DNA from: Corynebacterium testudinoris
Lineage (GTDB): Bacteria > Actinomycetota > Actinomycetes > Mycobacteriales > Mycobacteriaceae
DNA: 64,000 nucleotides
Assembly: GCF_001021045.1 (NCBI RefSeq)
Contig: NZ_CP011545.1
Location: forward strand, 2,418,001-2,482,000
Direction: 5' to 3'
Position numbers and translations under genes: made by a program. Positions 1,377-63,407 of this stretch are shown here, in pieces. The notes beneath the pieces were generated by a model. It had not been told where the DNA came from and made no database searches. It saw only the letters and a program-made list of their open reading frames with translations. Every line of letters begins with the position of its first letter. The first letter of the stretch is position 1.

Positions 1377-2732
1377 ATGACTGACGTAACGCACCTTCGC
1401 ACCCACATCCTCGGCCAGCGGGAGCAGATTTTCGCTGACCTCTCCGCCCTCTGTTCCTTCGATTCCGTCCACAACGAGCCCGGCCACGAGCAGGACACAG
1501 CCGCAGCCGCCGAGTGGACCCGTCAAGCGCTTATCGACGCCGGGCTCACCGTCACCACCCACCTCACCGCCGACGGTTCCACCGCCGTCATCGGACGGCA
1601 AGAACCCAGCGAAGGCATGCCGACGGTCCTGCTGTACTCCCACTATGACATCGTCCCCGCCGGCGATCCCGCGAAGTGGACCTCCGATCCCTTCACCCTC
1701 ACCGAGCGCGACGGCCGCTGGTACGCCCGGGGTGCTGCGGACTGCAAGGGCAACCTCGCCATGCACCTCGCTGCCCTGCGCGCTGTCACCGCCGCCGGCG
1801 GCACCCGCCTCGGCCTCATCGTCCTCGTCGAAGGTTCGGAAGAGCGCGGCGGCGAAGGCCTCGACCACCTCCTGCGCACCCAGCCGGAGCTGTTCCGCGC
1901 CGACGCGATCATGATCGCCGACACGGGCAACGCGGCCGTCGGTACGCCGACGCTGACCACCTCCCTGCGCGGTGGCGCGCAGGTCACCGTCACCGTGGAC
2001 ACCCTCCGCGCGCCGCTGCACTCCGGCGGCTTCGGCGGGGCGGCGCCCGACGCCGTCGCGGCGCTCGTCCGCCTGCTGGACACCCTGCGTGACGATGCCG
2101 GACGGACGGTGATCGACGGCGTCGATACGCACACAAAGTGGCAGGGCGAACCCTACGAGGCCGACGCCTTCCGCACCGATGCGGGCATCCTCGACGGCGT
2201 CGACATCATGGGAACGCGTGACGACGCCCCCGCCGACATGGTGTGGGCCCGCCCCGCCATCACCATCACCGGCTTCACCTCCACCCCCGTCGCCGAGGCC
2301 GTCAACGCCGTCCCCGCCACCGCCCAAGCAAAGCTCAACCTGCGCGTCCCCCCGGGAATGGATGCCGACGACGTCGTGGCCAAGCTCGACGCCCACCTGC
2401 ACGCCCACGTGCCCTGGGGCGCACACCTCACAGTCGACATCGACGACATCAACCAACCCTTCAGCACCGACACCGCCGGCCCCGCCCTCGGACTCCTCCG
2501 CAGCTGCCTCGCCCGCGCCTACGACACCGACAAAGCCGCCACCATCGGCACCGGCGGCTCCATCCCCCTCACCCTCGCCCTGCAGGAAACCTTCCCCGAC
2601 GCCGAAATCGCCCTCTACGGCGTCGAAGAGCCCCTCACCACCATCCACTCCCCCGACGAATCCGTCGACCCCACCGAAATCGAGCACATCGCCCTCGCCG
2701 AAGCCACCTTTTTAATGGAATTCGGCGCCTAG
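1377..2732 (+). CDS. M20 family metallopeptidase (dipeptidase)
   Basis: Cytosolic zinc-dependent peptidase of 451 residues, likely cleaving dipeptides. Visible M20 features are His89 in YSHYDIVPAG, Asp122 in ARGAADCKGN and the catalytic Glu pair at 155-156 in EGSEERGGEGL; a dimerisation domain follows from about residue 200 and the last metal ligands lie in TIHSPDESVD near the C-terminus. The ATG at 1377 is preferred over upstream in-frame starts because a -10-like TAGGGT (1364-1369) ends 7 bases before it, which gives a leaderless mRNA, and because M20 homology begins here. It is divergent from groL and shares its regulatory region. Exact substrate unknown. Confidence 0.9.
   Translation: MTDVTHLRTHILGQREQIFADLSALCSFDSVHNEPGHEQDTAAAAEWTRQALIDAGLTVTTHLTADGSTAVIGRQEPSEGMPTVLLYSHYDIVPAGDPAKWTSDPFTLTERDGRWYARGAADCKGNLAMHLAALRAVTAAGGTRLGLIVLVEGSEERGGEGLDHLLRTQPELFRADAIMIADTGNAAVGTPTLTTSLRGGAQVTVTVDTLRAPLHSGGFGGAAPDAVAALVRLLDTLRDDAGRTVIDGVDTHTKWQGEPYEADAFRTDAGILDGVDIMGTRDDAPADMVWARPAITITGFTSTPVAEAVNAVPATAQAKLNLRVPPGMDADDVVAKLDAHLHAHVPWGAHLTVDIDDINQPFSTDTAGPALGLLRSCLARAYDTDKAATIGTGGSIPLTLALQETFPDAEIALYGVEEPLTTIHSPDESVDPTEIEHIALAEATFLMEFGA
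1529..1539 (+). repeat. First of 12 copies of the dispersed 11-mer GCTTATCGACG
   Basis: Exact copies read on the + strand at 1529, 15561, 16323, 28091 and 32872, and on the - strand (as CGTCGATAAGC) at 7942, 14000, 15981, 22254, 28137, 33238 and 62819 (leftmost coordinates). In all 12 the second base after the 11-mer is C, giving GCTTATCGACGNC; the intervening base is T in six. A 10-base version (CTTATCGACG) is at 47966 and a one-mismatch version near 53389. Ten exact copies lie inside genes and two form the hairpin between pknG and ackA. Confidence 0.85.
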
Positions 2733-2735
2733 GGC

Positions 2736-2770
2736 TTGCACGCAAATGTGACAGGCGTTACTGTCACAGT
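2736..2770 (+). promoter_or_regulatory. Promoter with overlapping inverted-repeat operator
   Basis: The -35 is TTGCAC (2736-2741), then a 17-bp spacer, then the -10 TACTGT (2759-2764), placing the transcript start at about 2770-2771, where a GTG codon opens a short ORF. A perfect 8-bp inverted repeat, TGTGACAG (2747-2754) and CTGTCACA (2761-2768), covers the spacer, -10 and start site, as a repressor operator would. The spacing does not fit GlxR (TGTGA-N6-TCACA). Confidence 0.65.
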
Positions 2771-5015: not shown

Positions 5016-7976
5016 GTGCTGCTACTTCTCGGAGCACTTACCGTCGCTGCCATAGTGGCGCCAGCTCTCATCCGACTCATGGGCAGATCAGCATTCGCCC
5101 TGCTTGCCCTCGTTCCCGCGGCTGGGTTCTTTTGGGTGCTGTCGCTGTTTACTAACGGCACGTTCCTCAACGATGGGGCGCTCGTCACCAATATCGAGTG
5201 GATGCCCACCGCTCACTTGAATATTGAGATGCGCCTTGATTCGCTGGCTGGTTTGTTCAGCCTCATTATCTTGGGTGTCGGCGCGCTGGTGCTGTTTTAT
5301 TGTTGGGGCTATTTCGATTCGAATCCGCGCCGTCTCGCGGTGTTTGGCGGCCAGATGGTCGCTTTCGCGATGGCGATGTTTGGCCTGGTCACCTCGGACA
5401 ATTTCCTGTTGATGTACATCTTCTGGGAGATCACGTCGGTGCTGTCTTTCCTGTTGGTGGGCTATTACGGTGAGCGGGCGTCTTCGAGAAGGTCGGCTGG
5501 CCAGGCGTTGATGGTGACCACGTTGGGTGGCTTGGCCATGTTGGTGGGCATCATTCTGCTGGGTCGTCTGACGGGCATCTGGCGGTTGTCGGAGATTCCG
5601 CAGTTCACGGAATTGGCGACGACTCCGCATATCACCATTGCGGTCATCCTCATCTTGGCGGGTGCGCTGTCGAAGTCGGCGATTGCGCCGATGCATTTCT
5701 GGTTGCCGGGTGCGATGGCTGCGCCGACGCCGGTTTCGGCGTATTTGCACTCTGCGGCCATGGTCAAGGCGGGTATCTACCTTGTCGCGCGCCTGGCCCC
5801 GAATTTCCATGTGGTTGATACGTGGCATTTGGTGGTCATCCCGTTGGGCTTGTTCACCATGCTCATGGCTGGGTGGATGGCGTTGCGGCAGAAGGATCTG
5901 AAGCTCATCCTTGCTTATGGCACGGTGTCCCAGTTGGGCTTTATCACGGCGGTCGTGGCGGTGGGTTCGCGGGAGGCGATGTTGGCGGGGCTGGCGTTGA
6001 CGTTTGCGCACTCGCTGTTCAAGGCGTCGTTGTTCATGATCGTGGGCGCCATTGACCATACGACGGGTACCCGCGATATTCGTGAGTTGTCGGGGTTGGG
6101 GCGCAGGCAGCCGCTCGTTGCGCTGTTGGCGATTGTGTCGGCGGCGTCGATGGCGGGTATTCCGCCGCTGTTTGGCTTCGTGGCTAAGGAGGCGGTGCTG
6201 GAGTCGGTCATGCATGAGGAATTGCTGGTGGGTATGCCGCGCAATCTCATGCTCGTCGCGATTGTGGTCGGTTCGACCCTGACGGTGGCGTATGCGCTGC
6301 ATTTCCTGCATGGGGCCTTCGCTACGAAGAAGTCCTCGCACGTTAGTGGTGGCGGCCGTTCGGAGGCGGTGGAGAAGATGCATGCCATCGGTCCGCAGTT
6401 GTGGCTGGCTCCGCTCGTGCTTACTGCCCTGACCGTGTTCTTTGGGTTGTTCCCCGCGCCGTTGTCCAGCGCCATCACCATGCATTTGGATAATGTCACT
6501 CCGCTCATGCCGGGCGAGAGCGCTACCTATTTGGCGCTGTGGCATGGGTTTACTCTGCCGCTGTTGTTGTCGGCGCTCATTGTTGCGGTCGGTACGGTCA
6601 TGCATTGGCAGCGGGCGGTGGTGGCTAAGGCGCAGCCGGAGGTCCCGGCGTTGGGCAGTGCCGATTCTGCGTATGATGCGGTGCTAGATATGTTCCGCCG
6701 CATGTCGTTGCGTTTGACGGCGTCGACGCAGCGGGGTTCGTTGGTGGCCAACTTGGCCATTATTTTCGGTGTGCTCATTGTGTTGCCGGTGACGGCGCTC
6801 ATTATTGGTGAGCGCAGTGATGTCCGCATGGAGTTGTGGGATTCGCCGTGGCAGGCGTTGGCGTCGGTGATTATTATCGTCGCGGCGATTGCGGCTACGC
6901 GGATGGATAACCGCTTGTCGGGCGTGATTTTCGTTGGTGTGACGGGCTATTCCATTGCTTTCATCTTTGCGTTGCAGGGTGCGCCGGATTTGGCGCTGAC
7001 GCAGACGTTGGTGGAGACGATCGTCATGGTCGTGTTCATGTTGGTGCTGCGTAAGCTGCCGTCGACGACGGAGTGGAAGCAGTCTCCGCAGGCCAATCGC
7101 CTGCGGGCGTGGCTGTCGGTGGCGGTGGGTCTGTCGGTGACGTTGGTGACGATGTTCGCTATCAATGCTCGCAACGAGGAGCCGATTTCGGTGTTCATGC
7201 CGGATCTGGCTCAGGAGATTGGCCATGGGGCGAACGCGGTCAACGTGTTGTTGGTGGATATTCGTGCGTGGGATACGTTCGGCGAGATTTCGGTGTTGGT
7301 CATCGCGGCCACTGGCGTGGCCTCGCTCATCTACCGCACGAGGTCATTTACCAGAGCTTCTCGACGTCCGACGCTCTCCGTCACCGGCCGCCGCTGGCTG
7401 GCCGCAGGTGTCGAGACCGAAAAACAACAAAACCGCTCCCTCATGGTCGATGTGGCCACGCGGGTGTTGTTCCCCTCGATGATTGCGTTGTCGTTGTACT
7501 TCTTCTTCGCCGGCCACAATGCGCCGGGTGGTGGCTTCGCCGGCGGCCTCGTTGCCGCCCTGGCGTTCACGCTGCGCTACCTTGCGGGCGGGCGCGCCGA
7601 GTTGGAGGAGGCGTTGCCGATCGATGCTGGTCGTATCCTCGGCTCGGGGTTGGTCATCGCGTCGATCGCGGCGATCTGGCCCATGTTCTTGGGCTACCCG
7701 CCGCTGACCTCGGCGTATGACTCGGTGGATTTGCCGCTCATTGGCAATATGTCGCTGCCGTCGGCGCTGATCTTCGATACGGGCGTTTATCTCATCGTCG
7801 TCGGGTTGATCATGCACATTCTCAATTCTCTTGGTGGTCAGCTCGACTTGGAGGAGGAGATGCGCAAGCAGAGGGCGCGCGACCGCGCGCGCTCGATGGC
7901 GCGTGCGGCCGAGAGGCGACAACGAATAGCGAGTGAGAAGGCGTCGATAAGCACTGGTACGAAGGGAGAGAAGTAG
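5016..7976 (+). CDS. mnhA: Mrp/Mnh Na+/H+ antiporter subunit A (A-B fusion)
   Basis: A 986-residue polytopic membrane protein, the largest subunit of the hetero-oligomeric Mrp cation/proton antiporter that exports Na+ using the proton gradient. The N-terminal ~480 residues resemble NuoL/MrpA, with motifs such as MYIFWEITSVLSFLLVGYY and HSAAMVKAGIYLVARL. From about residue 590 come a DUF4040-type segment (GAPDLALTQTLVETIVMVV) and a MrpB-like C-terminus (YFFFAGHNAPGGGFAGGLVA), so subunits A and B are fused. The start is GTG at 5016 with GAAGGGGA upstream. It heads a six-gene operon. A basic cytosolic tail ends the protein and carries one copy of the dispersed 11-mer, there using a rare ATA codon. 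Confidence 0.95.
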   Translation: MLLLLGALTVAAIVAPALIRLMGRSAFALLALVPAAGFFWVLSLFTNGTFLNDGALVTNIEWMPTAHLNIEMRLDSLAGLFSLIILGVGALVLFYCWGYFDSNPRRLAVFGGQMVAFAMAMFGLVTSDNFLLMYIFWEITSVLSFLLVGYYGERASSRRSAGQALMVTTLGGLAMLVGIILLGRLTGIWRLSEIPQFTELATTPHITIAVILILAGALSKSAIAPMHFWLPGAMAAPTPVSAYLHSAAMVKAGIYLVARLAPNFHVVDTWHLVVIPLGLFTMLMAGWMALRQKDLKLILAYGTVSQLGFITAVVAVGSREAMLAGLALTFAHSLFKASLFMIVGAIDHTTGTRDIRELSGLGRRQPLVALLAIVSAASMAGIPPLFGFVAKEAVLESVMHEELLVGMPRNLMLVAIVVGSTLTVAYALHFLHGAFATKKSSHVSGGGRSEAVEKMHAIGPQLWLAPLVLTALTVFFGLFPAPLSSAITMHLDNVTPLMPGESATYLALWHGFTLPLLLSALIVAVGTVMHWQRAVVAKAQPEVPALGSADSAYDAVLDMFRRMSLRLTASTQRGSLVANLAIIFGVLIVLPVTALIIGERSDVRMELWDSPWQALASVIIIVAAIAATRMDNRLSGVIFVGVTGYSIAFIFALQGAPDLALTQTLVETIVMVVFMLVLRKLPSTTEWKQSPQANRLRAWLSVAVGLSVTLVTMFAINARNEEPISVFMPDLAQEIGHGANAVNVLLVDIRAWDTFGEISVLVIAATGVASLIYRTRSFTRASRRPTLSVTGRRWLAAGVETEKQQNRSLMVDVATRVLFPSMIALSLYFFFAGHNAPGGGFAGGLVAALAFTLRYLAGGRAELEEALPIDAGRILGSGLVIASIAAIWPMFLGYPPLTSAYDSVDLPLIGNMSLPSALIFDTGVYLIVVGLIMHILNSLGGQLDLEEEMRKQRARDRARSMARAAERRQRIASEKASISTGTKGEK

Positions 7977-8468: not shown

Positions 8469-10218
8469 GTTTTTCCTGCCCTACGTTGACCTGCTCCTGC
8501 CCTTGATGCCTTTCCTCATTCCGCTGCCGGTCATCCTGCCGGCGGTGGCGGCGGCCTTGGCGCTGCTGGCTGGCCGACGCCCACACATCCAGCGGATCAT
8601 TGCGCTGGGAACGCTGACGGTGCTCATCGTGCTGACGGCGTCGATGGTCGTGGTCGTCGATATTGAAGGCATCCAAACTGTCCAGTTGGGCGGCTGGGAC
8701 GCACCCATCGGCATCACGCTCGTCGCTGACCGCCTGTCCACGGTCATGCTCACCGTCTCCTCCATGGTCCTGTTCTGCGTCATGTGGTACGCGATCAGCC
8801 AGGGTGTGCGCGACGGCGGCAAGGACGAGCCCGTCGCGGTGTTCCTGCCCACGTACATGCTGCTGAGCATGGGCGTGAACATGTCCTTCCTCGCCGGCGA
8901 CCTGTTCAACCTGTACGTCGGTTTTGAGGTCTTCCTCGTCGCCTCTTACGTGCTGCTCACCCTCGGCGCCTCCGCGTCGCGAGTGCGCGCGGGCGTGTCC
9001 TACGTCATGGTGTCCATGGTGTCGTCGATGATTTTCCTCTTCGGCCTCGCCATGGTCTACGCCGCCGTGGGCACGGTCAACCTCGCGCAGATCGGCATGC
9101 GCATGGATGAGATCCCCTCCGGTACGCGCGCCGCCATTTTCGGTGTCCTGCTCGTCGCCTTCGGCATCAAAGCCGCCGTCTTCCCGCTCGATGCCTGGCT
9201 CCCCGACTCCTACCCCACCGCCCCGTCCCTGGTCACCGCCGTGTTCGCGGGCCTGCTGACGAAGGTGGGTGTGTACTCCATCATCCGCATGCGCTCGGTG
9301 GTGTTCACCGATGGCTCCCTCGATGGGCTGTTCATGTGGGTGGCTCTGGCGACGATGATCGTGGGCATCCTCGGCGCCATGGCGCAGAATGACATCAAGC
9401 GATTGCTGTCATTTACCCTGGTCAGCCACATTGGTTACATGATCTTCGGCATTGCCCTCGGCTCGGCGCAGGGCCTGTCAGGCGCGATCTTCTACGCCGT
9501 GCACCACATTCTCGTCCAAACCGCGCTGTTCCTCGTCGTTGGTCTCATCGAGCGCCAAGCCGGCACGTCTTCTTTGCGACGTCTCGGTTCCCTCGCCTAC
9601 ACCGCCCCCGTCATCGCCATCCTCTACCTCATCCCGGCGCTCAACCTGGGCGGCATCCCACCGTTCTCCGGGTTCCTGGGCAAAATCATCCTCATCGAGG
9701 CCGGCGCCAACGAAGGCAGCTGGCAGGCATGGGTGCTCATTGCCGGTGCCGTGATCACCTCCCTGCTCACGCTCTACGTCATGGTCATGGTGTGGTCGAA
9801 GGGCTTCTGGCGCGACCGCAAGGACGCCCCGGAAGGCAACGTCGCGACGGCCCGCCCGGCCCCCCTCGCCGATGTCACCGACGAGGTGGAATTCGGAGAG
9901 CGTGACGACGTCGGCCGCATGCCCGTCGGCATGGTCGCTTCCACGACCACCCTCATCGCCGCCTCCCTCGCCGTCTCCGTCCTCGCCGGACCGATCGCCG
10001 GCGTCACCGACCGCGCCGCCGAATCCGCTCAGGACGTCTCCATCTACCGCACCGCCGTGCTGGGTACTGACTTCTCCAACCCCTCGCGCACCCTCGACCA
10101 GCAGCGGCTCGACGATGGCTCCGATGATCTGCGCAACCGCGAACACGGCCTGCCCGAGCCGATACCGGTCATCTCATCGACCCCGGCCGAACCGACTACA
10201 GAGGAGGCCCAGCCATGA
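8461..10218 (+). CDS. mnhD: Mrp/Mnh antiporter subunit D
   Basis: A 585-residue NuoM/NuoN-type proton-channel subunit with about 14 membrane helices. Diagnostic stretches are FNLYVGFEVFLVASYVLL, FGIKAAVFPLDAWLPDSYP and LNLGGIPPFSGFLGK. The conserved Lys/Glu residues of the channel lie in these motifs. A cytosolic loop rich in acidic residues lies near residues 455-480, and a long charged C-terminal tail (about 540-585) ends in Pro/Thr/Glu-rich sequence. It overlaps mnhC at its start and mnhE at its end (ATGA). Confidence 0.95.
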   Translation: MSEFFLPYVDLLLPLMPFLIPLPVILPAVAAALALLAGRRPHIQRIIALGTLTVLIVLTASMVVVVDIEGIQTVQLGGWDAPIGITLVADRLSTVMLTVSSMVLFCVMWYAISQGVRDGGKDEPVAVFLPTYMLLSMGVNMSFLAGDLFNLYVGFEVFLVASYVLLTLGASASRVRAGVSYVMVSMVSSMIFLFGLAMVYAAVGTVNLAQIGMRMDEIPSGTRAAIFGVLLVAFGIKAAVFPLDAWLPDSYPTAPSLVTAVFAGLLTKVGVYSIIRMRSVVFTDGSLDGLFMWVALATMIVGILGAMAQNDIKRLLSFTLVSHIGYMIFGIALGSAQGLSGAIFYAVHHILVQTALFLVVGLIERQAGTSSLRRLGSLAYTAPVIAILYLIPALNLGGIPPFSGFLGKIILIEAGANEGSWQAWVLIAGAVITSLLTLYVMVMVWSKGFWRDRKDAPEGNVATARPAPLADVTDEVEFGERDDVGRMPVGMVASTTTLIAASLAVSVLAGPIAGVTDRAAESAQDVSIYRTAVLGTDFSNPSRTLDQQRLDDGSDDLRNREHGLPEPIPVISSTPAEPTTEEAQP

Positions 10219-11590: not shown

Positions 11591-12154
11591 CTAGGCGAGC
11601 AATTCCCGGACGACCAGCGCCGGGTTGTTTTCGTACCAGAGGCCTTCGGGCACGCGGATGACCTTTGCCGCTTCGATGGTGTCTGGGGTGTCGGCGGCGC
11701 TGAAGATGGTGAGGGGAATTCCGAGGATTCCGAGCTGGCCGGTGAGGTCGTGATCGCGGAGGGATTCCAGCGACTCCATGGCTTCATCCTTGTCGATGCC
11801 GCGGCGGCGCAGGAGGAAACGCGGGATGAGGCGCAGGGCCTTCATCTGGGTGTTGATGGTTTTTTCGTCGGTGCGCAGGGGGGCGTCGGAAAGCAGTAGC
11901 CGGGTGACCCGGTTGGGTTGGGCGAGGGCGAATTGGGCGGCGACGAGGGCGCCGGTGCCGTGGCCGAAGAGGATGACGCTGCGGAGTTCGTGTCGGTCGA
12001 GGTAGTCCTCGAGGGTGCGGCATTGGTCGTCGATGCTGCCGACGGAGAGGTTGGGCAGCCAGGGTGTCACGTCGGCGGGCAGTTCTTGGACGACGCCGGT
12101 GTAGGTATCGGGCATGCGGCCCATCGGGTGCAGGAGAACGAGGTTAGTGCTCAA
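11591..12154 (-). CDS. Alpha/beta hydrolase
   Basis: A short (187-residue) alpha/beta-hydrolase-fold protein. It has the oxyanion region LVLLHPMGR near the start and a nucleophile elbow FGHGTG (residues ~64-69), where the usual Ser of G-x-S-x-G is replaced by His or Thr, so classical Ser-hydrolase activity is doubtful. Late residues ([16 protein letters not shown]) fit the end of the fold. The likely start is TTG at 12152-12154, since later ATGs would remove the first strand; this overlaps the end of the YbdK-type ligase gene by 11 bp and implies coupling. Confidence 0.65.
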
Positions 12155-13899: not shown

Positions 13900-14147
13900 T
13901 CTAGCTTTTCGTTGAGCAGCGCCCGCTCACCGGCGCGCCTGTCGCGGACCCGCCGCAGGCGGGACAGTAGGACGGGGTGGGCGGACATGGCCGCGGGGAC
14001 GTCGATAAGCAGGTTGAGGCGCTGATAATAACGGACGGGGCTGATGCCCAACTGCGCCCGGATGGCCTCTTCCTTGGTGCCGGCCGAGCGGGGCGCGCGT
14101 TCCTCGAACGCCAAGAGGCGGGCGTCGGATTCGGAGAGCTCGGACAT
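13896..14147 (-). CDS. DUF3263 protein
   Basis: 83 residues, starting MSELSESDARLLAFEERAP, with the helical core GTKEEAIRAQLGISPVRYYQRLNLLID characteristic of DUF3263 (quoted in two overlapping pieces: GTKEEAIRAQLGIS and PVRYYQRLNLL). The region resembles a small DNA-binding helix-turn-helix. The gene is divergent from def, their starts being 16 bp apart, and overlaps the LytR_C gene. It carries one copy of the dispersed 11-mer, encoding LLID with the uncommon CTT codon. Confidence 0.8.
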   Translation of the reverse strand: MSELSESDARLLAFEERAPRSAGTKEEAIRAQLGISPVRYYQRLNLLIDVPAAMSAHPVLLSRLRRVRDRRAGERALLNEKLE

Positions 14148-14163: not shown

Positions 14164-14748
14164 ATGACTGTGCGCCCCATTGTTATCCACGGCGACCCCG
14201 TGCTCCATCATCCGACTACTCCCGTCGACCCCGCTGACATCGCCTCCGAGGAGATGCAGACGCTGATCACGGACATGTTTGAGACGATGGACGTGGCCAA
14301 TGGCGTTGGCCTGGCCGCCAATCAGGTCGGGGTGAGCAAGCGCGTATTCGTTTATAACTGCCCCGACAATGAGGGCGTTATGCACACCGGGTGCGTGATT
14401 AATCCGGTGCTCACCACCTCCGCCATCCCGGAGACCATGCCCGCCGATGATGGCACCGACGACGAGGGGTGCCTCTCTCTGCCGGGCGAGGGCTTCCCGA
14501 CGCCGCGGGCGCACGAGGCCACCGTCACCGGCTTCGACGCCGACGGCAACGAGATCACCGTGGACGGTACCGGTTTCTTCGCCCGCTGCCTGCAGCACGA
14601 GGTCGGTCACCTCGATGGCTTCGTGTACACCGACGTGCTCATCGGCCGCTACAAGCGCCAAGCCAAAAAGGCGATCAAGGCCAACGGGTGGAACCAAGCC
14701 GGTATGACGTGGATGCCGGGCGTCGACGACGATCCCTTTGGGCACTGA
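14164..14748 (+). CDS. def: Peptide deformylase
   Basis: Metal-dependent enzyme that removes the formyl group from nascent proteins. All three motifs are present in a 194-residue protein: GVGLAANQ (47-54), EGCLSLP (101-107, with metal ligand Cys103) and HEVGHLDG (145-152, with His145, Glu146 and His149). TAAACT (14151-14156) ends 7 bases before the ATG, so the mRNA is probably leaderless. The stop overlaps the start of the next GNAT gene by one base. Confidence 0.97.
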
Positions 14749-15746
14749 TGGGGATCTTCCGTTCTGATGAGCCGCAGGTGGGCGACCGGATCGTCGTTCG
14801 CCGGATCCTGCCGGACACCCCGGGCCATCTCAGCGATGTCATCGGCCACGTGGTGTCCGTCGATCCGCTCGTGGTGCGCCCGCAGGAGGTCGGCGGTTTT
14901 CCCAGCGAGGCGGAGTCGCTGGAGATCCCGCCAGAGCAGGTGAAGGTGCTGAAGAAACTCTCCCCGCGCATGATCCGCAACTCCGACATCCGCGCCGTCG
15001 AGGTCGCCACCGCCAAGGCTTTCCCGGGCACCGAGCACACGTGGACCGCCAACGGTCAGTGGCTCATGCGCGCCGGTGATGGCATCACGGAACGCTCCAA
15101 TTCTGCCGTGCCGCTCGGCCCCTCGGCGGGGTTTGAGGCCGTTCCGCTGGATGAGATCACCGCCTTTTACGCCCGCCACGACCTGCCCGTCCGCCTGCTC
15201 ATTCCCGAGCGCATCGGCGCCCCGGCGGAAAAGCTCACCGCCTCCGGCTGGACCTTAGGCCCGGAAATTATCGTCATGACCAGGTCGTTGGCGGATGTCC
15301 CGGTCTCTGATGCCGCGCCGGAGCTGCGCTTCCACGTCGACGACCAGCCCGACGATGATTGGCTCGCCCTCTACCACTTCCGCGGCCAGTCCCTCCCCGT
15401 CCGGGCGCTCGAGCTGTTGCGCGAACAGATCGACGGCCAGATGGGCTTCGGCCGCCTGCTCACCCCCCATGGTGAGACCGTCGCTATCACGCGCGGCACC
15501 CTCACATCCTCGGGCGATGGCAGTCTCTGGCTCGGTTATTCGGCCGTCGAGGTCGACATTGCTTATCGACGCCGCGGTCTCGGCACCCGCCTCGGCATCG
15601 ACATGTTGCGTTGGGGCGCCGCCAACGGCGCTGATCGCGCCTACCTCCAAGTCATCGCCTCCAATGCGGCGGGGCGCGCACTGTATAGCAAACTGGGTTT
15701 CGGAGAGCACCATCGACATCGCAGCGCGGAGCTAACTCACAGGTAG
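14748..15746 (+). CDS. GNAT-family N-acetyltransferase with N-terminal extension
   Basis: 332 residues. The N-terminal ~75 residues form a small beta-rich domain (GDRIVVRRILPD, SDVIGHVVSVDPLVVRP). The C-terminal GNAT domain has the acetyl-CoA loop YRRRGLGTRLGIDMLRWGA (split as RRRGLGTRLG, residues ~273-282) and a final LYSKLGFGEHHRHRS. The acceptor is unknown. The ATG overlaps the def stop (TGATG pattern), so it is co-translated with def. One copy of the dispersed 11-mer lies in the frame encoding AYRR, a different frame from most copies. Confidence 0.85.
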   Translation: MGIFRSDEPQVGDRIVVRRILPDTPGHLSDVIGHVVSVDPLVVRPQEVGGFPSEAESLEIPPEQVKVLKKLSPRMIRNSDIRAVEVATAKAFPGTEHTWTANGQWLMRAGDGITERSNSAVPLGPSAGFEAVPLDEITAFYARHDLPVRLLIPERIGAPAEKLTASGWTLGPEIIVMTRSLADVPVSDAAPELRFHVDDQPDDDWLALYHFRGQSLPVRALELLREQIDGQMGFGRLLTPHGETVAITRGTLTSSGDGSLWLGYSAVEVDIAYRRRGLGTRLGIDMLRWGAANGADRAYLQVIASNAAGRALYSKLGFGEHHRHRSAELTHR

Positions 15747-24582: not shown

Positions 24583-28084
<3,502 letters not shown>

Positions 28085-28089
28085 AAAAA

Positions 28090-28148: not shown

Positions 28149-28154
28149 GTGTTT

Positions 28155-43688: not shown

Positions 43689-44342
43689 TCACCAGGCTGT
43701 GTTGAGGTCGGCGTGTTGCCGAATCCAGCTGTGCATGGCGATGCCGGCGGCCACGCCGGCGTTGATGGAGCGCGTCGACCCGAATTGGGCAATGGAGCAG
43801 GTCATGAGGGCTCCGTCGGCGGCTTCCGGGGTGATGCCGGGGCCTTCTTGGCCGAAAAGGAGCAGACATTCTCGGGGTAGTTCGGCTGTTTCGAGCGGCA
43901 CCGATCCCGGGGTGTTGTCGATCGCCACGACGGTCACTCCCTCAGTGTCAGCCCACTCCAGTAGTGAGGCCACATCCGGGTGGTGCATGAGGTGTTGGTA
44001 GCGGTCGGTGACCATCGCGCCGCGGCGGTTCCAGCGTCGCCGCCCGACGATGTGCACGGTGTCCACGGCGAAGGCGTTGGCGGTGCGCACGACGGTGCCA
44101 ATGTTGGCGTCGTTTTCAAAGTTCTCGATCGCCACGTGCAGCGGATGCCGCCGGGTATCAATGTCCGCGACGATCGCCTCGCGCGTCCAGTACCGGTAGG
44201 CGTCGACGACGTTGCGGGTATCGCCTTCCGCAAGAAGTGCGGCGTCGTAAAGCGGATTGTCCGGCAGTTCGCCCTCCCACGGGCCGACGCCGTGGCGGCC
44301 CTCGCCCCACTCGGTGGGGCCCTTAGGCGAGTCCAAGATCAT
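43689..44342 (-). CDS. TrmH/SpoU-family RNA methyltransferase
   Basis: 217-residue SPOUT-fold methyltransferase. The motifs are HVAIENFENDANIGTVVRTANAF near residue 60 (motif 1, split as ENFENDANIGT), LLLFGQEGPGI near 158 (motif 2) and IAQFGSTRSINAGVAAGIAMH near 182 (motif 3). Target is probably 2'-O of a tRNA or rRNA nucleotide. The start MILDSPKG (ATG 44340-44342) overlaps the end of pyrE by 20 bp, so the two are translationally coupled. Confidence 0.9.
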   Translation of the reverse strand: MILDSPKGPTEWGEGRHGVGPWEGELPDNPLYDAALLAEGDTRNVVDAYRYWTREAIVADIDTRRHPLHVAIENFENDANIGTVVRTANAFAVDTVHIVGRRRWNRRGAMVTDRYQHLMHHPDVASLLEWADTEGVTVVAIDNTPGSVPLETAELPRECLLLFGQEGPGITPEAADGALMTCSIAQFGSTRSINAGVAAGIAMHSWIRQHADLNTAW

Positions 44343-48782: not shown

Positions 48783-51341
48783 CTAACGGCTGGAGATGTC
48801 GAGGTGTTGTCCACCGTCGGCCACATCCACGTGGACGGTGTCGCCGTCGCGGATGTCTCCGGCCAGCAGTTCCTTGGCCAGCTTGTCACCAATTGCCTGC
48901 TGGATGAGGCGGCGCAATGGACGAGCACCGTAGGCCGGGTCGTAACCGCGGTCGCCGAGCCAGTGCTTGGCAGCGTCGGACACATCGAGGGTCAGGCGGC
49001 GGCTGGCCAGACGAGCGGCCAGCTGACGGATCTGGATGTCCACGATGTGGGTCAGCTGCTCTTGGGACAGGGACTCGAAGATGACAACATCGTCGAGGCG
49101 GTTGATGAACTCCGGCTTGAAGGCACGCTTCACGGCTTCCATCATCTGCTCACGGGTTCCACCTGCGCCCAGGTTGGAGGTGAGGATGAGGATCGTGTTG
49201 CGGAAGTCCACCGTGCGGCCTTGGCCGTCGGTGAGACGGCCCTCGTCGAGCACCTGCAGCAAGATGTCGAAGACGTCAGGGTGCGCTTTCTCCACTTCGT
49301 CGAAAAGCACGACGGTGTAGGGGCGGCGTCGGACGGCCTCGGTGAGCTGTCCGCCGGCATCGTAACCGACGTATCCGGGAGGCGCACCGACGAGGCGGGC
49401 GACGGCGTGCTTCTCGCCGTACTCGGACATGTCGATGCGGACCATGGCCCGCTCGTCGTCGAAAAGGAACTCCGCGAGCGCCTTAGCCAGCTCCGTCTTA
49501 CCCACACCCGTCGGGCCGAGGAAGAGGAAGGAACCGGTCGGACGATTCGGATCGGCGACACCGGCGCGGGCGCGACGGACCGCATCGGAAACAGCCTCCA
49601 CTGCCTCCTGCTGACCGACAACGCGGTTGCCCAGGACCATCTCCATAGCGAGGAGCTTCTCGGTCTCACCCTGGAGCATCTTGCCGGCGGGGATACCCGT
49701 CCAGGCGGACACAACCTCGGCGATGGTGTCGGGCGTGACCTCCTCTGAGAGCATGGCGTTGTTGGAACCGTCGGCGACGTTGGCCTCGGCCTCAGCTACT
49801 TCCTTCTCCAACTCGGGGATACGCCCGTAGCGCAGCTCCGCGACGGTGCCGTAGTCACCATCACGCTCGGCGATCTCGGACTCCTGGCGCAACTTTTCCA
49901 GTTCCTCCTTGGCACCGCGAACCTTGTCGATGGAACCTTTTTCATTCATCCAGCGAGCTTTGAGCTCGCCGAGAGTCTCGCGTTCGTCGGCAAGCTCTTG
50001 ACGGAGCTTTTCCAGGCGATCCTTGGACGCATCATCGGACTCCTTGCCCAAGGCCACTTCCTCGATCTCGAGGCGGCGAACAACGCGCTCAAGCTCGTCG
50101 ATTTCCTGCGGCGAGGAATCAATCTCCATGCGCAGGCGCGAGGCAGCCTCATCGACCAGGTCAATGGCCTTGTCCGGCAGGAAGCGGTTGGTGATGTAGC
50201 GATCCGAGAGGGAAGCTGCGGCAACCAGGGCGGAATCCTGAATGCGGACGCCGTGGTGAACCTCGTAGCGCTCCTTGAGACCACGGAGGATGCCAATGGT
50301 GTCCTCCACCGACGGCTCGCCAACAAAGACCTGCTGGAAACGACGCTCCAGGGCGGCATCCTTCTCGATGTACTTGCGGTACTCATCAAGAGTCGTGGCG
50401 CCAACGAGGCGGAGCTCGCCGCGAGCCAACATCGGCTTAATCATGTTTCCGGCATCCATGGCGGATTCCCCGCTGGCACCAGCACCGACGATGGTGTGCA
50501 ACTCATCGATGAACGTGACGATCTGCCCGTTGGAATTCTTAATCTCATCCAGGACGGCTTTGAGGCGCTCCTCGAACTCACCGCGGTACTTCGCACCAGC
50601 GACCAGGGACCCCAGGTCAAGGGAGATGAGCGTCTTGCCCTTGAGCGACTCCGGCACGTCACCGGTGACAATGCGGCGGGCAAGTCCCTCCACGATGGCG
50701 GTCTTGCCCACGCCGGGCTCACCGATGAGGACCGGGTTGTTCTTGGTACGACGGCTCAACACCTGCACCACACGGCGAATCTCCGAGTCACGGCCGATGA
50801 CCGGGTCGATCTTCCCCTCGCGCGCACGAGCAGTGAGGTCAGTGGAGTACTTCTCCAGCGCCTGGAACTGTCCCTCCGGGTCCTGGCTGGTCACCTTAGA
50901 ACCACCACGCACGGTGGCGATGGCCTCCTTGATGGCCTCATAAGTAGCGCCGCGGTTGGTCAGCAGCTTGGCAGCATCAGAATCGCCGCGAGCAATGGCC
51001 GCGAGGAGCACCTCAGTGGAAACGTACTCGTCGCCGAGTTCGCCGGCCAGTTCCTGAGCGGCGGTGAGGACATTGAGAGCGTCCCGGTTGAAGTTCGGGT
51101 TGGCCAGGTTGCTTCCCTGGGCCTTGGGATACGAATCAACCAGAGCACGTGCCTCCCGGGCAATCGTCTCTGGGTCTACGCCCGTGGCTTTGAGCACGGG
51201 GGCGGCAATGCCATCCGGCTGGTCCAGAATCGCGGACAGCAGGTGGGCCGGACGGATATCCGGGTTGCCGTTAGCGGAGGCCTCTTGCAGAGCGGTCTGC
51301 AGGGCCTCTTGCGTCTTAGTTGTGGGGTTAAACGAGCTCAT
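48783..51341 (-). CDS. clpB: ATP-dependent disaggregase ClpB
   Basis: 852-residue HSP100 chaperone that rescues aggregated proteins with DnaK. N-domain (1-~145), AAA-1 with Walker A GEPGVGKT near residue 205, a coiled-coil M-domain (about 405-520, rich in Glu/Lys/Leu), AAA-2 with [19 protein letters not shown] near 605, and the C-terminal [10 protein letters not shown] sensor-2 motif. GAGAAAGGAAAC precedes the ATG. It is monocistronic, with a SigH-like promoter and HAIR operators upstream. Confidence 0.97.
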
Positions 51342-54177: not shown

Positions 54178-55344
54178 ATGTTCCCCAAGGACCTGCTCCA
54201 TCGCCACTTCCCCGCCACCGTCGTGGGCGCGGGACAAGCAGGCCTGGCAGCTGCCCACGAACTGCAGCGCCGCGGCCTGCGACCAGGGTCCGACTTCATC
54301 GTGCTCGACGGCAACGACGGCCCCGGCGGCGCCTGGCGTCACCGATGGGATTCCCTCACCTTCGGCAAAGCACACGGAATCGCCGACCTCCCCGGCCTGC
54401 CCATGGAACGCCCCGATCCCCAGAAGCCCGCATCCCGCCTCGTCGCCGACTACTACGGCGCCTACGAAGATGCCTTCGAGCTGGCCGTCGTGCGCCCCGC
54501 ACCCGTCCACTCAGTCACCGCCGAATCCACCAACAGCCCATTGGAAGTCCACCTCGCCGAAGGGAGCTTCACTACCGACATCCTGCTCAACGCCACCGGC
54601 ACCTGGGACAGCCCCTACATCCCCGCCATCCCCGGAATCGCCTCCTTCGAAGGGCGTCAGCTCCACACGCGCAACTTCCGAGCGAAGGAAGACTTCACAG
54701 GTCAGCGCGTCCTCGTCGTCGGCGGAGGTCTCTCCGCCGTGCAGTTTCTCCTCGAGCTTGCCGACGTCGCCACAACCACCTGGGCGACCCGTCGCCCACC
54801 GAACTTCACCACCAGGGAGTTCGACGCAGGCTGGGGCCTCGCCGTAGAAAATGCGGTGCGCGAACGCACCTTCGCCGGGCATGCGCCCGCCTCAGTGGTC
54901 CGCACCACCGGCATCCCACAGATCCCCGACTACCTCGACGGCGTCGCCGCCGGGACGTTGGTCTCCCGCGGGATGTTTGACCGCATCACCCCGACAGGGG
55001 TGATGTTCGGTCCGGTGGAAAATGGCGAGGCTGAGGGGCTCGGGCCGTCGCAAAGCACGGAATTGGCGGTACCCGAATCGTGGGACCCCTTCCCCGCGGG
55101 CACCGAGCTGGCGGTGGACACCATCTTCTGGAACACCGGTTTCCGCCCTGCACTGCGGCATCTCGCCCCACTGAAACTGCGGGAACGAAGCGGAGGAATC
55201 TTCCTAAAAGACGAGGTCACCCCCGCGCGCGACCCTCGAGTGCTGCTCGTCGGATACGGCTCCAACGCCTCGACCGTCGGCGCAACCCGCGCCGGCAGAC
55301 TCGCCGGCCGCCGAGCCGCCCACCATCTCACCCAACTAGTTTAA
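54178..55344 (+). CDS. FAD-dependent oxidoreductase, flavin-monooxygenase-like
   Basis: 388 residues with two dinucleotide-binding motifs: VVGAGQAGLAAAHELQRRG from residue 15 (FAD) and VLVVGGGLSAVQFLLELA near 178 (NADPH). GNDGPGGAWRHRWDSLTFG near 48 is the GGxW region of flavin monooxygenases, and the C-terminal FWNTGFRPAL fits the same group. Substrate unknown; could act on amines, sulphides or ketones. The start is fixed by the leaderless promoter, removing 22 residues of a possible longer frame. An LLM-type flavoenzyme gene follows 8 bp later, so the two may be co-transcribed. Confidence 0.85.
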   Translation: MFPKDLLHRHFPATVVGAGQAGLAAAHELQRRGLRPGSDFIVLDGNDGPGGAWRHRWDSLTFGKAHGIADLPGLPMERPDPQKPASRLVADYYGAYEDAFELAVVRPAPVHSVTAESTNSPLEVHLAEGSFTTDILLNATGTWDSPYIPAIPGIASFEGRQLHTRNFRAKEDFTGQRVLVVGGGLSAVQFLLELADVATTTWATRRPPNFTTREFDAGWGLAVENAVRERTFAGHAPASVVRTTGIPQIPDYLDGVAAGTLVSRGMFDRITPTGVMFGPVENGEAEGLGPSQSTELAVPESWDPFPAGTELAVDTIFWNTGFRPALRHLAPLKLRERSGGIFLKDEVTPARDPRVLLVGYGSNASTVGATRAGRLAGRRAAHHLTQLV

Positions 55345-55352: not shown

Positions 55353-56417
55353 ATGAAATCATTCGGATTCCTCAGTTTCGGCCACTACGCCATCGGCAAC
55401 CAAGCCGGACCCGGCGCCGCTGACATGCTGAAACAGGCCCTGGAACTATCCCAAGCCGCCGACGAGATCGGCGTCAATGGCGCCTACTTCCGCGTCCACC
55501 ACTTCGCCCCGCAAGGCGCCTCCCCCATGCCGCTGCTCGGCGCGATCGCCGGCTCCACCAAACACATCGAAGTGGGCACCGGCGTCATCGACATGCGCTA
55601 CGAAAACCCCCTCTACCTCGCCGAAGAGACCGCCGCACTGGACTTGCTTTCCGACGGCCGCCTCGCCATCGGCGTATCCCGTGGGTCACCCGAGCCCGCC
55701 GCCCGCGGCTGGGAATCCTTCGGCTACACCGGCGCAAAAGACCCCAAGGGAGCAGACCTCGCCCGCGAGAAATTTGAGACATTCCTCGCCGCCATCGACG
55801 GCCAAGGCATGGCCCGCGCCGCCTCCGCCGAGGACCAATACCCCCGCATGTTCCAAGCCGGCACACCTCTACCCGTCTTCCCGCACTCCCCTGGCCTGCG
55901 CGAACACATCTGGTGGGGCGCCGGCTCCCGACCCACCGCCGAGCAAGCCGCCCGCGACGGCGTCAACCTCATGAGCTCCACCCTCGTCACCGAAGCCACC
56001 GGCCAATCACTCGCTGAGATCCAAGCCGAACAAATCCAGCTCTACCGCGACGCCTGGAAGGAAGCCGGTCACGACTGGACCCCACGCGTCTCCGTCTCGC
56101 GCTCCGTCTTCCCCATCACCAACGACCGCGAACGCCAGATGTTCGGCCGCACCGAGGACTCCGACTCCGTCGGCATCATCGACGGCATGCGCTCCACCTT
56201 CGGCCGCACCTACGCCGACGAACCCGACAAGCTCATCGAACAATTGCTTGCCGACGAAGCCGTCCAATCCGCCGACACCCTCATGCTCACCATCCCCAAC
56301 CAGATGGGCGTCGACCTCAACCTCTCCATCCTGAGCAACTTCGCCGAGCACGTCGCCCCGGCCCTGGGATGGATCCCCGCCGACCAAGGCCCAGCCACCG
56401 GCTACGACATCTCCTAA
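55353..56417 (+). CDS. LLM-class flavin-dependent oxidoreductase
   Basis: 354 residues of the luciferase-like monooxygenase fold (TIM barrel). It begins MKSFGFLSFGHYAIG and has ADEIGVNGAYFRVHHFAPQG near 35, GVIDMRYENPLYLAEETAALDLLSDGRLAIGVSRG (parts: MRYENPLYLAEE and SDGRLAIGVSRG), typical of family members that use FMNH2 or F420. AAGGACAACC precedes the ATG. The genomic pairing with an FAD enzyme may mean that the upstream flavoprotein shares the pathway; this is inference. An inverted repeat follows the stop. Confidence 0.87.
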   Translation: MKSFGFLSFGHYAIGNQAGPGAADMLKQALELSQAADEIGVNGAYFRVHHFAPQGASPMPLLGAIAGSTKHIEVGTGVIDMRYENPLYLAEETAALDLLSDGRLAIGVSRGSPEPAARGWESFGYTGAKDPKGADLAREKFETFLAAIDGQGMARAASAEDQYPRMFQAGTPLPVFPHSPGLREHIWWGAGSRPTAEQAARDGVNLMSSTLVTEATGQSLAEIQAEQIQLYRDAWKEAGHDWTPRVSVSRSVFPITNDRERQMFGRTEDSDSVGIIDGMRSTFGRTYADEPDKLIEQLLADEAVQSADTLMLTIPNQMGVDLNLSILSNFAEHVAPALGWIPADQGPATGYDIS

Positions 56418-60802: not shown

Positions 60803-60821
60803 CAGACCTATAGTCGAGGCC

Positions 60822-61217: not shown

Positions 61218-62128
61218 GAGTTGTTGGCGAGGAAGTCCCGGGCGATGATCGGGGCTTCGGCTTTTTCTTTGCCGATGTTGCGCAGGTTCATGGCGACGAG
61301 GGCGTCGGTGGTGAGGAGGGCGGAGGCGCCGTTGATGGCGTCGATGGCTCCTTCGGGCAGGGCGTCGGAACGCATGAGCGGGAGGACGTTTTGGGGGAGG
61401 ATGAGGCCTTCGGGGTCGTCGAGGGTGACCAGGTCGATTTCGTTGCCGGCGGCATCCAACAATGGTGAGGTGGTGTAGATATCTGCGGTGTCTGCTGTGC
61501 CGTCGGTGAGGGCGGCGATGGTGAGGGGGCCGCCGCCGTCGGAAATGGGGACCATGGTGATGGTGGCGGCGTCGACGTTGTAGACCTCGGTGAGGCCGCG
61601 CGGGCCGTAGGGCCGTTCGGCGAGTTCGGGGTTGGCTGCGACGCGGACTTGGTCGAGTTTGGCGAGGTCGGCGAGGGTGGTGAGGCCGCGATCGTCGGCA
61701 AGCGAGCGGGTGACGCGGTAGGAGTCTTTGGATTCGCCTTCGGCGAAGTTGCCGGCGATGAGTCCGTCGGGTAGGGCTTCGGTCAAGAGCTTTTCGACGT
61801 CCGCGGAGCTTGCGCCCGCAGGCAGGTCAGCACCGTAGAACTGGGCGAGGTTGCCCGCGTATTCGGGCACGAGGTCCACGCTGCCCTCTTCGAGGGCGCG
61901 GAGGTAGACCTCGCGGGAGCCGATGGCGGAGGTGACCTCGACGGTGAATCCGGCGTCTTCGAGGGCTTGCGCCCACACCTGGCCGATGATTTCGGATTCG
62001 GGGAAGTTGGCGGTGCCGATGGTGATGACATTGTCGTTGGAGCCGGAGTCCAGCGGATCCGATGGGGAGGAGCAGGCGGTCAGTGCCAGTGCGAGGGTGG
62101 CGATGAGGGCGGCAATGCGGTTCTTCAT
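61214..62128 (-). CDS. Osmoprotectant ABC transporter substrate-binding lipoprotein
   Basis: 304 residues. Signal peptide with lipobox LTAC near residue 18-21, then an OpuAC/glycine-betaine-binding fold (TIGTANFPESEIIGQVWAQAL near 36, PEYAGNLAQFYG near 89, ISDGGGPLTIAALTDGTADTA near 196, VLPLMRSDALPEGA near 250). Likely ligands are glycine betaine, choline, carnitine or similar. The ATG at 62126-62128 is used because the signal peptide starts there; it overlaps the stop of the upstream permease (ATGA). Last gene of the four-gene operon. Confidence 0.92.
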   Translation of the reverse strand: MKNRIAALIATLALALTACSSPSDPLDSGSNDNVITIGTANFPESEIIGQVWAQALEDAGFTVEVTSAIGSREVYLRALEEGSVDLVPEYAGNLAQFYGADLPAGASSADVEKLLTEALPDGLIAGNFAEGESKDSYRVTRSLADDRGLTTLADLAKLDQVRVAANPELAERPYGPRGLTEVYNVDAATITMVPISDGGGPLTIAALTDGTADTADIYTTSPLLDAAGNEIDLVTLDDPEGLILPQNVLPLMRSDALPEGAIDAINGASALLTTDALVAMNLRNIGKEKAEAPIIARDFLANNS

Positions 62129-62772
62129 GTCACACGTCCTTGGGGTTGAAGGGATCGTTGTAGCGAGGCGAGAACCACATCGACGATGAGGGCGAGGACC
62201 GTCACCAGGAGTGCTCCGGTGAGCATTTGCGGGTAATCGCGGAGTGCGAGCCCGTCGATGAGGAAGCGGCCTAGTCCCGATAATCCAATGTAGGCAACAA
62301 TGGTCGCCGTGGCTAGCACTTGGACGACACAGGAGCGCAGGCCGCCCATCATGGTGGCGGCGGCGAGGGGCAGTTCGACGCCAGTGAGGATCTGAGTTTC
62401 GCTGAAGCCGGAGGCTCGGGCGGAGTCGATGACGGGGCGGGGAATTGCTTGGAGTCCGGTGACTATTCCGGCGAGGAGGGGCGGGACCGCGAGGATGACG
62501 AGCACGATCGTGGCGGGGATCAATGGCACTCGTACGCCGAAGGTGAGTTGCACGGCGAGCCAGGTGAGCAGGCCGAGAGAGGGGAGGGCTCGCAAAGCGC
62601 CGGCGATTCCGACGATCGCGTGTGCCCCGCGCCCCGTGTGCCCGACCCACAAGCCGATGGGCAACGCGATGAGCAGAGCGAGGCCGACGGCCAGGGCGGT
62701 GTAGCCGAGGTGGTCGACGGTGCGGGAGACGATGAGCGGGAGGTTTCCGGGGTCGGTGAGGTAGGAGATCAT
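62125..62772 (-). CDS. Osmoprotectant ABC transporter permease
   Basis: 215 residues, six membrane helices, with the BPD-transporter loop SARASGFSETQILTGVELPLA (part: ASGFSETQILTGVELP) that contacts the ATPase. OpuCB/OpuCD-type. It starts MISYLTDPGNLP and overlaps both neighbours by 4 bp. The IGLSGLGRFLIDGLALRDY stretch is typical of the family. Confidence 0.91.
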   Translation of the reverse strand: MISYLTDPGNLPLIVSRTVDHLGYTALAVGLALLIALPIGLWVGHTGRGAHAIVGIAGALRALPSLGLLTWLAVQLTFGVRVPLIPATIVLVILAVPPLLAGIVTGLQAIPRPVIDSARASGFSETQILTGVELPLAAATMMGGLRSCVVQVLATATIVAYIGLSGLGRFLIDGLALRDYPQMLTGALLVTVLALIVDVVLASLQRSLQPQGRVT

Positions 62773-63407
62773 GATCGCCTCCACGGCATGGTGAGGCGGC
62801 CGATGAGGATGAGGGCGGCGTCGATAAGCACTGCCAGCAGCACCGTGCCCAGCAGGCCGACGATGATCTGCGTGGGGAACGAGCGTTGGAAACCTTCGGT
62901 GAACAGCGTGCCCAGGGAGGACACGCCGATGAGTGCTCCGACGGAGACCAAAGAGATTGTCGACGCCGCGACCACCCTGATCCCGGCCAACAGGCCTGGG
63001 CCGGCGAGCGGCAACTCGACGCCGAGGATGCGGCGCCACGTGGGGTAGCCCATCGCGATGGCGGCTTGGCGGACATCGCCGGGGACGGTGTCGAAGGCGT
63101 CCGCCGTGGAGCGAATTTGCAGCGCGAGGCCGTAGAGGGTCATGGCGACGATGACGTTGAGCGGGGAGAGGATCGAGGTGCCCAGCACGAGCGGCATGAC
63201 CACGAACATCGCCAGCGAGGGGATGACGTAGAGCAAGCCAGCGGCCACCACGACAACTTCCCGGGCGGGGCGGAACCGATGCGCCAACCAACCAATCGGC
63301 AGCGCGAGCAGGAAGGACGCGAGGATCGCCGGCCACGATAAGGCCAGGTGGTCCAGGGTTAGCTCGCCGATTTTAGCCGAGTTGTTTGCCACCCAATCCC
63401 ACCTCAT
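62769..63407 (-). CDS. Osmoprotectant ABC transporter permease (second)
   Basis: 212 residues, five or six helices. The ATPase-contact loop is AAIAMGYPTWRRILGVELPLAGP (part: AMGYPTWRRILGVELP). As usual for OpuC-type systems two similar permeases pair with one ATPase. It contains one dispersed 11-mer in VLIDAA. It overlaps the ATPase gene by 4 bp and the next permease gene by 4 bp, so the whole operon is translationally coupled. Confidence 0.91.
   Translation of the reverse strand: MRWDWVANNSAKIGELTLDHLALSWPAILASFLLALPIGWLAHRFRPAREVVVVAAGLLYVIPSLAMFVVMPLVLGTSILSPLNVIVAMTLYGLALQIRSTADAFDTVPGDVRQAAIAMGYPTWRRILGVELPLAGPGLLAGIRVVAASTISLVSVGALIGVSSLGTLFTEGFQRSFPTQIIVGLLGTVLLAVLIDAALILIGRLTMPWRRS

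Follow-up and report, generated by a model that had tools for sequence, protein, structure and literature searches.

DNA uptake words are known from two Gram-negative groups, the Pasteurellaceae and Neisseria. The DNA uptake sequences (DUS) of the Neisseriaceae occur in thousands of copies per genome, in dialects that follow the phylogeny around an invariant CTG core and that limit transformation between species, according to an excerpt of the report describing them (PMC3630211). In Haemophilus influenzae, the uptake signal sequence (USS) AAGTGCGGT is present in about 1,300 copies, and terminators often consist of two opposite copies of it (excerpt of PMC5217627). Among actinobacteria, Micrococcus luteus depends on its tad genes for transformation (excerpt of PMC4322843), and, according to part of a 2023 paper, no uptake sequence is reported for mycobacteria (PMC10526031). 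Here we analyzed a stretch of 64,000 nucleotides of the Corynebacterium testudinoris chromosome (hereafter the window; bases 2,418,001-2,482,000 of the single 2,721,226-bp contig NZ_CP011545.1), in which an original prediction had noticed many copies of the word GCTTATCGACG and had likened it to the uptake sequences of Neisseria and Haemophilus. This likeness is well supported by the abundance of the word, its restriction to the genus, its dialects, the conservation of its sites and its lack of polarity. From the sequence, it appears likely that the word serves natural transformation in Corynebacterium as a DNA uptake sequence; it has dialects, and the transformation probably proceeds through a Tad pilus and ComEA-ComEC.

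Abundance and conservation of the word

Across the 2.72-Mb genome, GCTTATCGACG occurs 439 times (213 copies forward and 226 reverse) and is thus not limited to the window, while the reversed word used as a control does not occur. The window holds 12 exact copies, five on the plus and seven on the minus strand, exactly where the original prediction had placed them. Its estimate of about 0.03 expected copies agrees with the 0.03 that a second-order Markov model gives for the window, and its claim of an excess holds: dinucleotide shuffles of the window contained 0.01 copies on average, and none of 100 shuffles reached 12. Similarly, a 464-kb sample composed of the window and 20 stretches of the C. 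testudinoris genome contained 87 copies, compared with 0.39 expected under a third-order model. Two other repeated words, ACTTCCTAACA and TCCTAACAACT, were each found 14 times in this sample, where 0.03-0.04 copies are expected.

The 464-kb sample was also used to define the shape of the word, which is non-palindromic. The full motif is approximately HGCTTNNCGACGNCS, with NN mostly AT in C. testudinoris. The base at -1 is not G in 83 of the 87 copies, and GCTTATCGACG is followed by any base, by C (85/87) and by C or G (82/87); within the window, the C two bases past the word is found in all 12 copies and GTC in six of them, as had been claimed. Positions 5-6 tolerate other pairs (AT 87, CT 19, GC 18, GT 15, TC 10 and TT 10 copies, and one to eight copies of each of ten further pairs, mostly above expectation), and each single change in the CGACG block was encountered once or never. 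The degenerate core CTTNNCGACGNC accordingly counts 1,030 copies genome-wide, compared with 60 for its reversed control, and 30 copies in the window. Past the interval from -1 to +15, the only signal left is a set of C-rich columns that recur every three positions, which would fit codon phase. No long conserved repeat or mobile unit (REP, ERIC or transposon-like) was found around the word in the alignment of this sample.

Chi and the FtsK-orienting polar sequences (KOPS) are strand-polar. We examined the polarity of the word on the C. testudinoris chromosome, using a contig that begins at dnaA-dnaN, as read from translation, and assuming a terminus near its middle. The first 100 forward sites are evenly distributed along the chromosome (Kolmogorov-Smirnov p 0.97), and 100 of the 213 forward copies lie within the first 46% of it (p 0.89), indicating no replichore bias. 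Neither a Chi-type orientation bias along replication nor a KOPS-type polarity towards the terminus was seen on this chromosome. Given this even spread and the assumed terminus, the word is unlike Chi or KOPS, in agreement with the absence of strand bias claimed before.

The claim that selection acts on the DNA and not on the protein is well supported by codon override, by site conservation and by the use of several frames. A heuristic gene call assigned the 87 copies to the sense frame LID (52), the antisense frames VDK (16) and SIS (9) and intergenic sequence (10), a tally that is approximate since the call was wrong at least once (copy 15561, counted among the nine SIS copies, reads AYR in sense). 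None of the 87 copies lies in the antisense frame that would contain a stop. Within LID tripeptides, CTT makes up 54 of 84 leucine codons, compared with 6.8% overall, and 52 of 54 where the adjoining bases match the motif; codon choice bends to the word. Word avoidance as a source of an apparent shortage of CTG in LID codons was rejected, as CTGATCGAC occurs at expectation (8 copies, 7.0 expected). A preference for intergenic sequence was not seen, since 10 of 87 sites with about 16% non-coding sequence (by the same gene call) represent no enrichment.

In the sister species G013, which is 87.75% identical over 206 kb, 34 of 44 sites are intact (p 6e-10); the background is 31.5% for all 11-mers and 32.5% for those with five A/T. 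Within the 11-mer, the first base of the NN pair is the least conserved (38/44), and positions 12, 13 and 14 are retained in 44, 41 and 41 of the 44 sites, respectively. For the window alone, 10 of 11 sites are intact against a background of 27.6%. In the more distant G104, the figures are 3 of 8 window sites and 8.7%, while G076, with only two window sites in the aligned sequence, retains neither (background 12.9%).

Spellings in the genus Corynebacterium

To determine the spread of the word, 242 Corynebacterium species genomes, including that of C. testudinoris, were surveyed. At least 30 copies of GCTTATCGACG were found in 160 of them, with a maximum of 782 and the strands roughly balanced, while the reversed control stayed in single figures. 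The rest of the order showed at most 10 copies of this spelling in 199 evenly sampled genomes. The word GCTTGCCGATGCC turned up in a 40-kb sample of the motif-poor G001. A second spelling, GCTTGCCGATG, is present in 133-478 copies in 14 of the 242 genomes (cut-off 100), and ten further genomes carry 23-37 copies. Only one of these 14, G024, also has at least 30 copies of the first spelling; with 210 copies of the second and 45 of the first, it may possibly represent a dialect switch in progress.

Fifty-nine genomes are low in both spellings. Eight of them (G054, G056, G070, G071, G168, G169, G189 and G237) use a third one, in which NN is not AT: they contain 543-1,396 copies of CTTNNCGACGNC, compared with 37-95 for the controls, and just 2-13 copies of GCTTATCGACG. 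The difference is most evident in G056 and G071, with 1,210 and 1,387 copies of CTTNNCGACGNC and 3 and 2 copies of GCTTATCGACG, respectively. The other 51 contain 13-220 copies of CTTNNCGACGNC, some of them above control. At these cut-offs, the three spellings together account for 181 of the 242 genomes. A modest excess of the degenerate core was observed in G066 (114 vs 77) and G232 (149 vs 56), and no clear genome-wide excess of it in G011, G012, G043, G132 and G207. Further motifs were sought in 40-kb samples of 30 motif-poor or middling genomes, and the top words of G018, G029, G227 and G021 proved to be clustered local repeats. These lie at L082:16047-16207 (G018, spacing about 25 bp), L083:2612-3327 (G029, about 64 bp), L033:9647-9930 (G021, 36-48 bp) and L112:10507-15036 (G227, often 30-45 bp).

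The part common to all three spellings is GCTT..CGA.G. Spellings rarely coexist in one genome, and they follow the tree as far as it was sampled. In a tree of 21 of the 242 genomes, based on five neighboring proteins (1,153 columns), the five sampled of the 14 genomes rich in the second spelling all fall into one clade (support 100) together with the motif-poor G043, so that the phylogenetic consistency of the dialects rests on a sample. The root was chosen (G121, G021, G230 and G029) and support is weak (41-75) at several of the deep branches, which places gain and loss of the motif beyond the reach of this tree. In named records, 79 comEC loci of 13.8-21.9 kb were compared: C. glaucum, C. 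oculi, C. lowii, C. mastitidis, C. tuberculostearicum and C. aurimucosum, for example, show the first form or the degenerate core, C. striatum shows the degenerate core only, and C. phoceense and C. macginleyi have a CGATG form. The original prediction had included neither the degenerate NN nor the dialects nor the spread across the genus.

Machinery, mechanism and rival explanations

The C. testudinoris genome encodes a ComEA protein with SLBB and helix-hairpin-helix domains, a ComEC protein, for which these scans reported no nuclease domain, and a Tad locus with tadZ/ssd, tadA, tadB and tadC (two T2SSF proteins), flp (DUF4244), tadE and tadF. The locus encodes two TadE-like proteins, one of which lies below the family cut-off. 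A motif copy is located at the very start of the tadE-like minor pilin gene (L071:9226, C1 ~259,226), where G013 reads GCTTTTCGACG. Genes of this kind are nearly universal in the genus (ComEC in 241 of the 242 genomes, a T2SSE/TadA-family ATPase in 239, 235 of them over the cut-off, and Flp/DUF4244 in 238); their presence therefore failed as a predictor of the motif, and the machinery permits but does not predict it. Protein divergence was a partial predictor at best. ComEA, ComEC, TadB and TadE of the motif-poor G011 and G012 are less like those of C. testudinoris than the proteins of motif-rich species are, while the housekeeping neighbors are as similar as elsewhere (L125, L126, L145 and L146 compared with L069 and L071). 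No such pattern was found in ComEA and ComEC of the motif-poor G043, G132 and G232, and the divergence in G011 and G012 is not used as proof since it is confounded by tree position. In motif-poor species, the open frame that contains the Flp pilin often looks longer (for example, 375 aa in G072 and 257 aa in G018).

Copy excess, strand balance, even spread, taxonomic limits with dialects and the presence of machinery genes in the host all agree with an uptake sequence. In the mechanism that we propose, a surface or pilus-tip protein would bind the word, with the minor pilins TadE and TadF, Flp and ComEA as candidates; the Tad pilus would retract the bound DNA, and ComEA-ComEC would bring one strand into the cell. 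Recombination of preferentially imported fragments would then spread and maintain the word over evolutionary time by molecular drive, with cells favoring DNA of their own kind as a result. We further lean towards the broader proposal that most of the genus, including commensals of human skin and mucosa, shares an uptake language split into dialects, which would have arisen independently of those of the Neisseriaceae and Pasteurellaceae, use a Tad-pilus or ComEA receptor, and set the partners of chromosomal exchange while keeping plasmids and phages out.

Plasmids and a phage of the genus were compared with chromosomes. Four plasmid records of C. aurimucosum and C. tuberculostearicum (81.7 kb) contain no CTTNNCGACGNC; 35 copies are found in three chromosomal loci under one of these two names (64.0 kb), which do not represent a random sample since all lie round comEC. 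All seven plasmid records (225 kb) contain 7 copies, compared with an expectation of 3.9, and a single exact GCTTATCGACG occurs in these records, in C. marinum. No copies were found in 50 of the 70.6 kb of phage P1201.

Several observations weigh against an uptake sequence. The plasmid sample consists of seven records, some partial and some of lower GC, one of them with an exact copy, and the two chromosomal loci of C. tuberculostearicum, being orthologous, are not independent. Outside the genus, the first spelling GCTTATCGACG alone was counted. Motif-poor species also carry ComEC, TadA-family and Flp genes, and ComEA and ComEC of the motif-poor G043 and G132 are as similar to those of C. testudinoris as the proteins of motif-rich species are. 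In some motif-poor genomes, the degenerate core exceeds its control moderately (for example, G231 220 vs 41, G124 134 vs 32, G021 146 vs 40), and the motif classes thus have no sharp edge. The copies show no intergenic enrichment, and terminator pairs are infrequent, unlike in H. influenzae. The receptor is a set of putative candidates (TadE, TadF, Flp and ComEA), and no Corynebacterium uptake or transformation experiment was among the matches listed in a literature without preprints and most subscription journals.

The most serious alternative is a Chi-like hotspot or self-marker, read by an end-resecting nuclease of the AdnAB/RecBCD type that spares the chromosome and starts recombination there. 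It stays alive because the C. testudinoris genome contains two adjoining large open reading frames (ORFs; 1,020 and 1,074 aa) in which PDDEXK_1 nuclease domains were found (G000:C1:651336-655251), a pair that may be AdnAB-like; dense chromosomes, sampled plasmids near background and a phage stretch without copies are also what a self-marker would produce. However, Chi acts in a single orientation and usually favors the leading strand, while the word has no such skew (213 vs 226 copies, with 100 of 213 forward copies in the first 46%, p 0.89), and with 11-15 bases it is longer than the Chi sites known to us. To our knowledge, no Chi has been published for AdnAB. We consider this explanation unlikely. 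The same distribution, chromosome-wide and near background in the sampled plasmids, could mark the site of a chromosome-organizing or segregation protein (a nucleoid protein, a condensin loader, or a KOPS- or matS-like system), whose lineage-specific spelling could follow a DNA-binding protein. This appears quite improbable in view of the even spread of the first 100 forward sites (KS p 0.97) without terminus polarity, and a range from background to hundreds of copies within one genus would be odd for an essential signal.

A mutational process could also write a word, as a consequence of methylation, repair or mutation bias and with no role in uptake, and the cyanobacterial highly iterated palindrome HIP1 is a precedent for the extreme excess of a short word without an assigned function. 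We regard such an origin as very improbable here, since the word is not a palindrome, is near background in the sampled plasmids of the genus, imposes itself on codon choice and is conserved at orthologous sites above background. Finally, repetition alone would be compatible with copies of one mobile element or of a repeated protein segment. This source is refuted by our results, and we assign it practically no weight: strong conservation ends within about 15 bases, with flanks otherwise near background, the copies are distributed over unrelated genes, where they occupy both sense and antisense frames, and over intergenic sequence, and orthologous sites are conserved.

Copies in the window and comparison with known systems

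The reading frames given for the window copies were recovered: LID in sense for the copies starting at 1529, 14000, 16323, 22254, 32872 and 62819, AYR in sense for copy 15561, which lies in an Rv0428c-like acetyltransferase gene, and the antisense frames SIS (7942) and VDK (15981). The remaining three of the 12 copies are intergenic by the heuristic gene call. The two copies assigned to one xth gene do share a single xth-like gene of the Exo_endo_phos family (15757-16578). The inverted pair 28091/28137 had been described as a terminator. It can form a hairpin of very high stability (-49.3 kcal/mol, z -10.2) between convergent genes, with a run of T next to it on the minus strand only; a simple terminator scan of 27700-28500 found no terminator. 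The more general preference for terminators was not borne out, as only three convergent inverted pairs within 60 bp were found among 193 degenerate sites (464 kb); frequent pairs of this kind are a common but not a defining trait of uptake sequences. The same is true of an excess in genome-maintenance genes, as reported for known systems, on which two copies in one xth-like gene have no bearing. The copies in the window are compiled in the table.

Table. Exact and degenerate copies of the word in the 64,000-nt window of C. testudinoris (NZ_CP011545.1).
Feature	Positions	Strand	Context
Motif copy GCTTATCGACGCC	1529..1541	+	M20-type peptidase gene, frame LID
Motif copy GCTTATCGACGCC	7940..7952	-	Mrp-type antiporter gene, antisense frame SIS
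Motif copy GCTTATCGACGTC	13998..14010	-	DUF3263 gene, frame LID
Motif copy GCTTATCGACGCC	15561..15573	+	Rv0428c-like acetyltransferase gene, frame AYR
Motif copy GCTTATCGACGTC	15979..15991	-	xth-like Exo_endo_phos gene, antisense frame VDK
Motif copy GCTTATCGACGTC	16323..16335	+	xth-like Exo_endo_phos gene of copy 15979, frame LID
Motif copy GCTTATCGACGGC	22252..22264	-	ABC transporter ATPase gene, frame LID
Motif copy GCTTATCGACGTC	28091..28103	+	intergenic, left arm of inverted pair
Motif copy GCTTATCGACGTC	28135..28147	-	intergenic, right arm of inverted pair
Hairpin of inverted motif pair	28090..28148	.	flanked by convergent pknG-like and acetate kinase genes; followed by T7 on minus strand
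Motif copy GCTTATCGACGGC	32872..32884	+	GNAT acetyltransferase gene, frame LID
Motif copy GCTTATCGACGTC	33236..33248	-	intergenic (heuristic gene call)
Motif copy GCTTATCGACGCC	62817..62829	-	BPD_transp_1 permease gene, frame LID
Degenerate copy GCTTGCCGACGCC	1100..1112	-	
Degenerate copy GCTTCTCGACGTC	7356..7368	+	
Degenerate copy CTTTGCGACGTC, without leading G	9572..9583	+	
Degenerate copy GCTTTCCGACGCC	11882..11894	-	
Degenerate copy GCTTCCCGACGCC	14492..14504	+	
Degenerate copy GCTTGCCGACGCC	21124..21136	-	
Degenerate copy GCTTTCCGACGCC	30844..30856	+	
Degenerate copy GCTTTTCGACGTC	34093..34105	-	
Degenerate copy GCTTTTCGACGCC	36252..36264	+	
Degenerate copy GCTTGACGACGTC	39355..39367	-	
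Degenerate copy GCTTTACGACGCC	44241..44253	-	
Degenerate copy GCTTGACGACGCC	45013..45025	+	
Degenerate copy GCTTGCCGACGCC	45227..45239	-	
Degenerate copy CTTTTCGACGAC, without leading G	49455..49466	-	
Degenerate copy GCTTGCCGACGTC	54756..54768	+	
Degenerate copy GCTTTGCGACGGC	55044..55056	-	
Degenerate copy GCTTTCCGACGGC	55646..55658	+	
Degenerate copy GCTTTTCGACGTC	61789..61801	+	

No Corynebacterium uptake sequence was among the matches listed, by title or start of abstract, in a literature without preprints and most subscription journals. If the proposed role is correct, the Actinomycetota would provide a third independent case of uptake words, in a Gram-positive, mycolic-acid-bearing lineage with sequence-specific uptake, although the principle itself is known from Gram-negatives. 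With at least three spellings, the genus would then offer a comparative experiment on the evolution of uptake sequences, for which mate choice, receptor bias and a by-product have been the candidate reasons. Many corynebacteria would be predicted to be naturally transformable with correctly marked DNA, and skin and mucosal communities would have a sequence rule for the partners of chromosomal gene exchange.

The word shares with Chi and KOPS that it is an over-represented chromosomal word, and differs from both in having no strand polarity. HIP1, an octameric palindrome whose function is debated, is likewise an extremely frequent short word; the Corynebacterium word is non-palindromic and has several spellings. 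Within the genus, Cod-2 of C. diphtheriae is described in part of one report (PMC2267715) as a short genic repeat that encodes different peptides in different frames. It differs from the motif as a 32-nt family for which that excerpt assigns no function; likened by description and not by consensus, it may be an unrecognized sighting of the motif. M. luteus needs an actinobacterial Tad pilus for natural transformation, and Corynebacterium has a Tad locus as well as comEA and comEC; the excerpt of the M. luteus report names no uptake sequence (PMC4322843).

Abundance links the word to the USS of the Pasteurellaceae, which is likewise scattered over both strands; the word itself and the taxon differ, and terminator pairs are rare in Corynebacterium. 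In Neisseria, the DUS receptor is ComP and the pilus is of type IVa, whereas Corynebacterium has a Tad/Flp pilus. The Corynebacterium word further departs from the DUS by belonging to the Actinomycetota, by its different sequence, by its mostly genic location and by its few inverted terminator pairs, and its proposed role in uptake is read from sequence. Both are short, many-copy words with a common core and with dialects that follow the phylogeny, as far as the excerpt on the DUS goes (PMC3630211), and by analogy the Neisserial DUS dialects are the closest analogue of the Corynebacterium word.

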